A stretch of 64,000 nucleotides of DNA. Origin: Halomicrobium urmianum. GTDB taxonomy: Archaea > Halobacteriota > Halobacteria > Halobacteriales > Haloarculaceae. The translations under genes were made by a program, and so were the position numbers. Of the stretch, positions 5,119-54,705 are shown in pieces (positions within the stretch are counted from its first letter, which is position 1; each line of letters begins with the position of its first letter). The notes beneath the pieces are model-generated. The model ran no database searches, had not been told where the DNA came from, and worked only from the letters and a program-made list of their open reading frames with translations. The stretch spans positions 2,108,001 through 2,172,000 of the forward strand of contig NZ_CP084090.1 in assembly GCF_020217425.1 (NCBI RefSeq), given 5' to 3'.

Positions 5119-5273
5119 GCTCGGGTCTCGGGGATGGACGGTATTAACGTGTGGGGCGGCTGGCGCGCTCGCCCGGGAACGACCGTCGGCACGAACGCGC
5201 GTCCGTACATACGCAGGGCTGCAAAGTAATACGACCGCGAAAATCGCCCGCGTCACCGCGAAGACGCGGCGGC

Positions 5274-5666
5274 TGAGGGGAGTAAGCCCCCTTCTGTTCG
5301 ATCCGGCATTCGGCTCAGCGTCCGCGCCCGCGGCCGGACTACCTGATGGCGCGGACTTGCACCGGTGAGGATTCGCCGTTCCATCCCTTCTCCGTCGTCT
5401 GGCTCACGGCCGAGGCCGCTCGCACGTTCCGGGACGACTACGTCGTCCCGCGACCCTCGGCGGGTTAACTCCCCGTTCCTTATCGGCTGACGCCGCGTCG
5501 GTCCGGGTTCGCGCGCCTCATCGGTCGGACGGAGGGGTCTCGTTTCTGTTCCAGAGCCGACGGTCTCCCGCCCCGGGCTTGCGCCCGGTCACCTGTCCGG
5601 CCGGTGGGGGGACTTTCCTCATGCCTCGCGGCACGGGGGCCGGACTCCCTCTGCCACTCTCCCCTA
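5274..5666 (-). ncRNA. rnpB: RNase P RNA (archaeal type A)
   Basis: On the minus strand the universal CR-I sequence GAGGAAAGUCC is at 5620-5610 and the CR-V sequence ACAGAA at 5297-5292. They are separated by about 315 nt, as in archaeal RNase P RNA. Helix P1 can be formed by AGGGGAG at 5665-5659 with CUCCCCU at 5282-5276, which sets the ends to within a few bases and gives about 393 nt. The RNA is the catalytic subunit of the ribonucleoprotein that removes tRNA 5' leaders. Open frames across this region are GC-rich artefacts. Confidence 0.93.
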
Positions 5667-34013: not shown

Positions 34014-35330
34014 TCAGAACAGTGCGTCCGCGTCGGCCTCGGTCTGGTCGGCTCGCTCGACGTCCAGCGCCTCCAGCGCCTCGCGGAGCCCGCGCCCGTC
34101 CGGGAGCGCGTGGATCTCGCTGGCGAACTCCACGTCGTCGGTCCGCATCGTCGCGTCGACGACGAAGGCGTGCTCCCGGTTCCGTCCGACCTGAGCGGCC
34201 AGCGGATCGACGATGGCCTGGCCCATGTCGTGGACGAGCTCCGGCGGGCTGTGGTCGATGGTCGTCTGCAACACGTTCGCCCAGCCGTCGACGAACCCGC
34301 TGGTGACGACGTTGCCCAGCTCCTCGATGGCCGCCCTGTGCCGGTCGGTCACGCCTTCGCCGTCGGGCGCGGTCGGCATCAGCGCTTCGGCGACAGTCAG
34401 CGCCGAGGCCTCGTCGAACAGCACCAGCAGGAAGCCACTGGGCGTGCCCGACAGTTCCACGACAGTGCCCACGTAGGTGTCCGACCCGATCCGCCGGGGG
34501 ACGTCCTCGACGGGCGCGAAGCTGATCCCGGTCACCTCGGCCTCCGTGGGGATGCCGGTCATCATCTCGACGTTGTCCGCCGCCGTGGCCGTCCCCGCCC
34601 GGGTCATCTCGTTGAACACCTCCAGCTTGTCGACCGGGACGGCCTCGCTCTCGCCGTCTCCGATGTCGGTCATCAGGTCGGTCAGCGCGCCCTGCTCCGG
34701 GAGCACGTAGATGTAGAAGTTCACCGGCTGGCCGACCCACTCAATCTCCGAGGCGAACACGAAGACCTGCTCACGTGTCGCTCTCTGCGGTCGCTCCCGT
34801 TCGCGTTTCCGAGGATCTCCGCTGCGCTCAGATCCTCGCTGCTCGCGTGTCGCCTCACTTCGTTCGGAGTCCCGCTGCTCCCGCTCGCTGCCCGTCGGGT
34901 CCGGGAGGACGGCCGGCCCGTCGGCCGCGACGTACTCGGGCGGGCTGTGTTCGATGGTCGTCTCGAGGTAGTCGGCCCAGCCGTCGACGAACCCGCTCAT
35001 CATGACGTTTCCGAGCTCCTCGACGCAGCTCTGCACCATGGCCGGGGTCGCCGCTCCGGGGAGCATCTCGCCCGCGACGGTCTCGGCTGAGTCGGCGTCG
35101 AACGCCAGGACCGCGTCGCCCTCGAGCCCGCCGGTGAGGTCGAACCTGACGCCGACTGCCTCCGTGCCGCGCAGTTCCCCGCCGACGTCTCCCCGGTTCA
35201 TCAGCGTGATCCGAGTGACGTCGACGGCTGCGTCGATCCCGGTCAACTGCGACAGCGACGCCGTGGCCGCCTCGCTGCCCTCGCGGGCCAGCCGATTGAC
35301 CGTCCCGAACGACTGGACGTCGACGCGCAT
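34014..35330 (-). CDS. cheC: CheC-type chemotaxis protein with two CheC halves joined by a repeat-derived linker
   Basis: The 438-residue protein contains two CheC-like modules, each with the conserved helix ending ELGN-MSGFVDGWA (residues about 105-120) or ELGNVVTSGFVDGWANVL (about 350). In the paired arrangement one half may bind CheD and the other CheY-P. Residues 147-188 are an Arg/Glu/Ser-rich segment (EREQRDSERSEATREQRGSE and onwards) encoded by a DNA hairpin repeat. A two-module CheC of about 400 residues is normal for haloarchaea; this linker is not. Confidence 0.92.
   Translation of the reverse strand: MRVDVQSFGTVNRLAREGSEAATASLSQLTGIDAAVDVTRITLMNRGDVGGELRGTEAVGVRFDLTGGLEGDAVLAFDADSAETVAGEMLPGAATPAMVQSCVEELGNVMMSGFVDGWADYLETTIEHSPPEYVAADGPAVLPDPTGSEREQRDSERSEATREQRGSERSGDPRKRERERPQRATREQVFVFASEIEWVGQPVNFYIYVLPEQGALTDLMTDIGDGESEAVPVDKLEVFNEMTRAGTATAADNVEMMTGIPTEAEVTGISFAPVEDVPRRIGSDTYVGTVVELSGTPSGFLLVLFDEASALTVAEALMPTAPDGEGVTDRHRAAIEELGNVVTSGFVDGWANVLQTTIDHSPPELVHDMGQAIVDPLAAQVGRNREHAFVVDATMRTDDVEFASEIHALPDGRGLREALEALDVERADQTEADADALF
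34768..34890 (-). repeat. Intergenic-type hairpin repeat embedded in frame in cheC
   Basis: A segment of about 123 bp (41 codons). Its core is a perfect 9-bp stem CGAGGATCT / AGATCCTCG (34810-34818 with 34830-34838) around an 11-nt loop reading GAGCGCAGCGG on the cheC strand. The flanks (AGCGAGCGGGAGC, GCGACACGC) match the intergenic repeat at 48572-48685, whose core is a 9-bp stem with an 11-nt loop. Stem bases differ but pairing is kept (TT/AA against AT/AT). Confidence 0.75.
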
Positions 35331-48538: not shown

Positions 48539-48566
48539 GCGGTTCCGAGTGCAACGAGGAACCGCC
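48538..48566. repeat. Hairpin with 9-bp stem and 11-nt loop after cheF1
   Basis: Perfect stem GGCGGTTCC / GGAACCGCC (48538-48546 with 48558-48566), loop GAGTGCAACGA. It begins on the last base of the cheF1 stop codon. A second GGCGGTTCC copy with a bulged partner lies at 48685-48718. Confidence 0.7.
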
Positions 48567-48612
48567 GGACAAGCGAGCGGGAGCGACGATAGGAGCGACA
48601 CGCAAACAGTAG

Positions 48613-48645
48613 CGAGGTTCTGACCGTAGGGAAGAACCTCGTTTT
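48613..48645 (+). terminator. Hairpin followed by T-run, candidate terminator of the che operon
   Basis: Perfect 9-bp stem CGAGGTTCT / AGAACCTCG (48613-48621 with 48633-48641), 11-nt loop, then TTTT (48642-48645). It lies 75 bp after cheF1. It is also the closest relative of the repeat inside cheC, so its role as a terminator may be secondary to its being a repeated element. Confidence 0.5.
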
Positions 48646-48783
48646 AGCGAGCGGGAATGAGCGAAGCGCACGACACGCAAGCATGGCGGTTCCTCGTTCA
48701 CGGGAGCGGGAAACCGCCGCTCGGATGCTCCCCGTCTAGCACACCGTCGAAATCGGTTTGTCGTGCCCCGGCGACGACACCAC

Positions 48784-54473: not shown

Positions 54474-54521
54474 GCCGGAGAAGCGGCGCTGCAGCTATTA
54501 AAGCCGCCGCCGGGTCGGCGT

Positions 54522-54630
54522 CCGGCCGAGCGTAGCGAGGCCGGGCTCGGAAGGCGAGTGGAACGAGCCGTTCGGCGTCCTGGCGAGCGAAGCGAGCCAG
54601 GGCTCGCGGGACGAACGCAGTGAGTCCCGC
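54522..54630. repeat. Row of hairpins with 11-nt loops after the exported-protein operon
   Basis: CCGGCC / GGCCGG (54522-54527 with 54539-54544) around GAGCGTAGCGA; CCTGGC / GCCAGG (54579-54584 with 54596-54601) around GAGCGAAGCGA; GCGGGAC / GTCCCGC (54606-54612 with 54624-54630) around GAACGCAGTGA. Degenerate versions lie between and after them (loops GAGTGGAACGA and GAACGCAGTGA). All loops are 11 nt and in the same orientation. Confidence 0.75.
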
Positions 54631-54705
54631 GGCGTCTCTGCGAACGCAGTGAGCGCGGGCTCGGGAGTCGACCAGCGGGAGCCTCCCGACGTCGGGCCGA
54701 TCGCG

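Follow-up and report, generated by a model that had tools for sequence, protein, structure and literature searches.

A hairpin repeat inside a protein gene

Does part of a protein-coding gene derive from an intergenic repeat and, if so, what kind of repeat is it? The question is raised by a cheC gene of Halomicrobium urmianum lying in the window analysed here (64 000 nucleotides of contig NZ_CP084090.1, positions 2 108 001–2 172 000), in which a first-pass annotation had seen an in-frame hairpin repeat of the type present between genes at 48.6 kb. From sequence comparison, we consider it very probable that the cheC segment consists of two copies, the first partial and the other complete, of a dispersed hairpin repeat of haloarchaea, and that the insertion took place in frame in this lineage (Table 1). 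The held-out HMM used for this comparison was made from 35 copies, all from outside the window, to avoid circularity; the covariance model was built with the cheC copy included.

Table 1. Features of the cheC locus and of the intergenic units at 48.6 kb (window coordinates)
Feature	Position	Strand	Support
cheC, host gene, 438 aa, two CheC-fold domains	34014–35330	-	Pfam CheC 2.7e-20 (2 stretches), CheX 3.6e-16; PDB CheC 3qta 3e-24
Repeat-derived stretch, CheC residues 147–187	34770–34892	-	Protein alignment with 13 relatives
Complete repeat unit in cheC	34769–34837	-	Held-out HMM E 2.6e-10; covariance model 76.2 bits, E 5.7e-12
Partial unit (spacer half) preceding the complete one in cheC	34841–34889	-	Held-out HMM E 5.3e-5
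Main hairpin of cheC, perfect 9-bp stem, 11-nt loop GAGCGCAGCGG	34810–34838	-	DNA fold
Gene with intergenic copies directly after its stop codon	47672–48538	+	Gene call
First intergenic unit	48539–48607	+	Held-out HMM E 9.3e-8
Second intergenic unit, compared with cheC in the first-pass annotation	48614–48682	+	Held-out HMM E 6e-13

The shared flanks and the stem and loop first described for cheC (...VLPDPTGSEREQRDSERSEATREQRGSERSGDPRKRERERPQRATREQVFVF... on the minus strand at the insert) were found again, and the DNA fold of the hairpin (-9.6 kcal/mol, z -3.2) was equalled by none of 200 shuffles. The stems of the cheC and 48.6 kb copies have indeed changed while remaining paired (GAGGATCT/AGATCCTC against GAGGTTCT/AGAACCTC), and this compensation holds across copies. 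The CheC orthologues of the genus are 414–415 residues long; their alignment runs to residue ~146–152 and resumes at 181–184, with contiguous DNA, and the same break is seen in most relatives of the family. The span from the VLP to the FVF anchor is 17 residues in 11 of the 13 aligned relatives and 52 in this CheC. The insert length of 41 residues originally given is therefore that of the stretch 147–187, whereas the net gain relative to the relatives is 35 codons. A search for the segment as a conserved part of distant CheC proteins encoded by different DNA left the insertion unrefuted. The stretch is rich in Arg, Glu and Ser, with 13 K/R and 11 D/E compared with 19 K/R and 71 D/E in the remainder of the protein.

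The position of the insert within the fold differs from that first suggested, namely a linker between the two CheC domains. The solved CheC structures align to residues 230–435, and residues 188 onward (QVFVFASEIEW...VNFYIYVLPE) match the strands that end the C-terminal CheC domain; these residues thus still belong to the first domain, and the insert lies inside it. The single-sequence AlphaFold model (mean pLDDT 39.6) is unusable, its strand order being at most consistent with this assignment. Beyond the active-site helix of the first domain, the inserted residues are probably disordered and form a loop. In two other genomes (G023 and G032; loci L059 and L060), CheC carries unrelated acidic extensions at this position, and the site therefore tolerates insertions.

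Architecture of the repeat unit

The unit is about 70 nt long. Its stem is variable in sequence but base-paired, its loop is fixed, and its spacer is conserved and contains another mini-hairpin. In the alignment of 37 copies (A1), a stem of ~8 bp (GAGGNNNN and its complement) encloses a GA-N-CGNAG-N'-GA loop. Next come a linker and GAGCGAGCGGGAG, and after them another short hairpin, whose loop is of the same type, and CGACACGCGAGC. The consensus begins with (C)GAGG. The ends of the unit, GCGAGG and CACGCGAGC, are direct and not inverted.

Pairing is maintained in spite of the sequence variation of the stem: pair changes on both sides occupy 76 cells across copies, compared with 24 after shuffling and no more than 21 when the partners are slid. 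The 83 parsed hairpins have 51 distinct 5' arms and an inner-stem complementarity of 0.90 (0.445 when shuffled), and the loop pair N-N' is Watson–Crick in 70 of 75 hairpins. Departures from pairing are divided roughly evenly between G-U (20) and A-C (14), a balance that offers no hint of selection acting on the stems as RNA. Either selection for structure or correction of one arm by the other may keep the stems paired. Pairing is equally good in intragenic and intergenic copies, and compensatory changes are also present in the non-coding ones. In five units (L151, L163, L167, L174 and L193; loop of the TCGCTTCGCTC type) the main hairpin is flipped with respect to the spacer.

Copy number and taxonomic range

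The cheC insert had been presented as a rare single event involving two copies. This does not hold: the cheC segment finds 46 places in its own 4.25-Mb genome by BLAST, the covariance model retrieves ~75 copies at E<1e-4 and about ten genes besides cheC contain copies. Within the family, 63 of 77 genomes and 20 of 22 genera have matches to the model. Across the phylum, matches at E<=1e-5 occur in 13 of 148 sampled genomes, every one within the same order, and none was found outside it in this sample. An exact-pattern scan of 84 980 species yielded 19 loci, all 19 haloarchaeal, among them loci in Halomicrobium katesii, Salinarchaeum, Halorarius, Halarchaeum and Halospeciosus. No relevant family was returned by an Rfam search of the window and six repeat loci, and the phages and haloviruses searched did not match the repeat. 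In the collections searched, the repeat family is restricted to haloarchaea. A search confined to the open literature turned up no account of the family or of its sequence in haloarchaea; this is apparently a separate, undescribed haloarchaeal repeat family.

Placement of the copies between and inside genes

Genes around 85 copies were called from codon usage with our own script, which placed 63 copies between genes, seven across a gene end and 15 wholly inside genes. Intergenic copies mostly lie close to gene edges. In 25 of the 34 gaps that have a same-strand upstream gene, no more than 6 nt separate the stop codon of that gene from the start of the first unit (2.5 expected). Of 16 other gaps, nine have a start codon on the opposite strand 38–55 nt beyond the beginning of the unit (1.7 expected), a distance that would place the unit immediately outside the promoter if the haloarchaeal gene is leaderless. 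Each of the two units at 48.5–48.7 kb has its own paired stem, and relatives of the gene in front of them have the same native stop with no repeat unit behind it. At G000:C1:795537–797719, two paralogues of this gene both have the repeat directly behind them. Counted by gap, tandem gene gaps of H. urmianum hold 26 sense and one antisense arrangements; counted by unit, those of the other species sampled hold 16 sense and 13 antisense copies, and many antisense copies in these species are found ~42 nt ahead of a start codon. Given this mixture of orientations in the other genomes, we abandoned the idea that intergenic copies generally follow the sense strand.

All 15 wholly intragenic copies lie on the sense strand, the weakest four (E 3e-4 to 9e-4) being less certain, as do all three found in other species. 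The antisense frames of the repeat are open more often than its sense frames, so that stop codons do not explain this pattern. The Pfam-supported hosts include YcaO, DUF7097, a DUF1537-type kinase, a polysaccharide deacetylase, ThiC, CobN, ScpA and methyltransferases. Predicted translations of the intragenic copies give a hydrophilic peptide rich in Ser, Glu, Arg and Ala; 13 of the 15 share one reading frame and the recurring peptide ERSEASERASGSERSERHAS, and cheC reads another frame. The site is empty in relatives for five genes, namely those encoding CheC, YcaO, the deacetylase, an Rsm22-like methyltransferase (insert of 30 residues) and the DUF1537-type kinase, the last as judged from tblastn coordinates. 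In YcaO, a clean insert of 23–24 residues (VHREG[ERSEPSERASGSEQGERHASREG]DWPRF) lies inside the Pfam domain, and its flanks are joined directly in relatives. A further copy, from the public record, is located in the HAD part of a P-type ATPase of Halomontanus rarus.

Two loci contain several units close together. At L147 (G000:C1:227107–238013) several units occur within 5 kb, two of which make up a ~40-residue C-terminal extension of ThiC. At L265 (genome G002), translation of tandem units gives a series of SEADQREASTDANGSERRERHVG blocks close to the N-terminus of a 291-residue membrane protein.

How the repeat may spread

We propose a non-autonomous and probably selfish element. Its copies would persist at the least harmful sites, namely those immediately following a stop codon, those a short way ahead of a promoter and the surface loops of proteins. 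What is recognized or copied is quite possibly the hairpin in its DNA form. We infer this step because the loop fits the GNA rule, some hairpins are flipped and the stems show no preference for G-U. GNA mini-hairpins of single-stranded DNA are very stable, with any base at N and closing G-C pairs (PMC4686876), although the fit of the repeat loop to this rule may partly reflect common descent. The arms would stay complementary through template switching at the DNA level or through a mobilizing enzyme. The evidence as a whole leans weakly towards action as a DNA hairpin. The complete picture, in which an element moving via a single-stranded DNA hairpin settles at gene edges and on the sense strand inside genes, and so would repeatedly supply many species with new protein loops, enzyme domains included, is more than we would expect to hold in its entirety, and we offer it tentatively.

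The placement data are also those that a functional RNA of transcript 3' ends would produce. Such a leaky terminator or 3'-end protector would be selected behind stop codons and be tolerated, or act as a partial terminator, inside genes. The accumulation of units within 6 nt of stop codons, the 26:1 sense bias in the tandem gaps of this genome and the sense orientation of every intragenic copy all agree with it, and in Haloferax volcanii transcription can end at hairpins: they are found upstream of 503 termination sites, and one coding-region hairpin terminated 59% of transcripts (PMC7237163). Against it, the stems show no preference for G-U over A-C, an observation that is not decisive, and this explanation also sits badly with the antisense copies upstream of start codons in other species, with the five flipped hairpins and with the lack of an Rfam match. 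We regard it as possible, if rather unlikely. A MITE or PATE, which would lack a transposase and be moved in trans by that of a related DNA transposon (classical or IS605 type), seems improbable. Such elements abound in Haloquadratum (PMC3119063), the size and copy number of the repeat are compatible with one and the genome has five Y1 transposases; yet the unit has no terminal inverted repeats and no target duplication (the bases beyond the shared CGAG match at 0.357, compared with 0.351 when shuffled), and the hairpin and spacer are absent within ~1.5 kb on each side of all five Y1 (TnpA) loci, the only transposase genes that this search covered. No mobilizing gene could be linked to the repeat at these loci, and a link to IS200/IS605 TnpA was accordingly dropped.

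The frame and peptide shared by 13 of the intragenic copies could suggest a protein module copied between genes under selection at the protein level, with the palindrome a by-product of its codons. This is very improbable when 63 of 85 copies are intergenic and untranslated, when cheC is read in another frame and when non-coding copies show compensatory changes as well. That the cheC segment is an ordinary arginine- and glutamate-rich linker resembling the repeat by chance, in a high-GC genome with many short palindromes, can practically be dismissed: the held-out HMM score of the complete unit and the gap in the relatives refute it. A target-copy or target-duplication model, suggested by the YcaO insert, in which the stem arm would be the target, was rejected, as the inner stem matches the downstream flank no better than shuffles do.

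Comparison with known repeat systems

The closest parallel in behaviour is provided by the Rickettsia palindromic elements (RPEs), which are dispersed palindromic repeats lying in frame in unrelated protein genes and encoding a recurrent peptide (PMC10969869, PMC3733652). The haloarchaeal repeat is likewise dispersed, palindromic and in frame in several unrelated genes (15 intragenic copies), with empty sites in the orthologues of five. It differs in its restriction to haloarchaea, in the variable stem with a fixed loop, in the 70-nt unit with two hairpins and in the location of most copies flush behind stop codons. By analogy the repeat may work like an RPE; the likeness meant here is one of behaviour, and falls short of showing that it is one. 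REP elements, which carry GTAG or CGTC tags, are also short high-copy hairpins, mostly extragenic near gene ends with some intragenic (PMC3733652), a distribution shared by the haloarchaeal repeat. However, the consensus of the latter contains neither tag, its unit is larger and has a conserved spacer, and no link to a Y1 (RAYT-like) transposase was found.

Among haloarchaeal elements, the PATEs, SMRs and MITEs of Haloquadratum are short transposase-free repeats (PMC3119063). According to published descriptions they are larger or have terminal inverted repeats, and their targets are other mobile elements, whereas the present repeat lies in and beside ordinary genes; it is by these descriptions that we set them apart. 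The terminator-like hairpins of H. volcanii resemble it in lying near transcript 3' ends, with some in coding regions, but are not reported as a dispersed family with a conserved loop and spacer (PMC7237163). In-frame palindromic repeats are known mainly from Rickettsia, and also as intragenic REPs; as far as we could find no archaeal case is described in the open literature. The question debated for Rickettsia, whether such repeats are only selfish DNA or also a source of protein novelty, becomes testable in separate, cultivable archaea thanks to the dozens of copies per genome, the empty sites in sister species and the insertions within enzyme domains. The design with a variable stem and a fixed loop is, in addition, a starting point for studying the copying of such elements.

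Other structured elements in the window

The GA-N-CGNAG-N'-GA loop is not a dominant type among the hairpins of the genome, an idea that found no support with four of 241 long-stem hairpins in 224 kb. The same loop occurs in four consecutive hairpins at 54520–54690 (plus strand), associated with a different spacer (CGGCGTC...GGGCTCGG); this row fills the gap between two minus-strand genes and probably represents another family of repeats built in the same way. The window also contains an archaeal RNase P RNA at 5271–5655 on the minus strand (Rfam RF00373, 163.6 bits).
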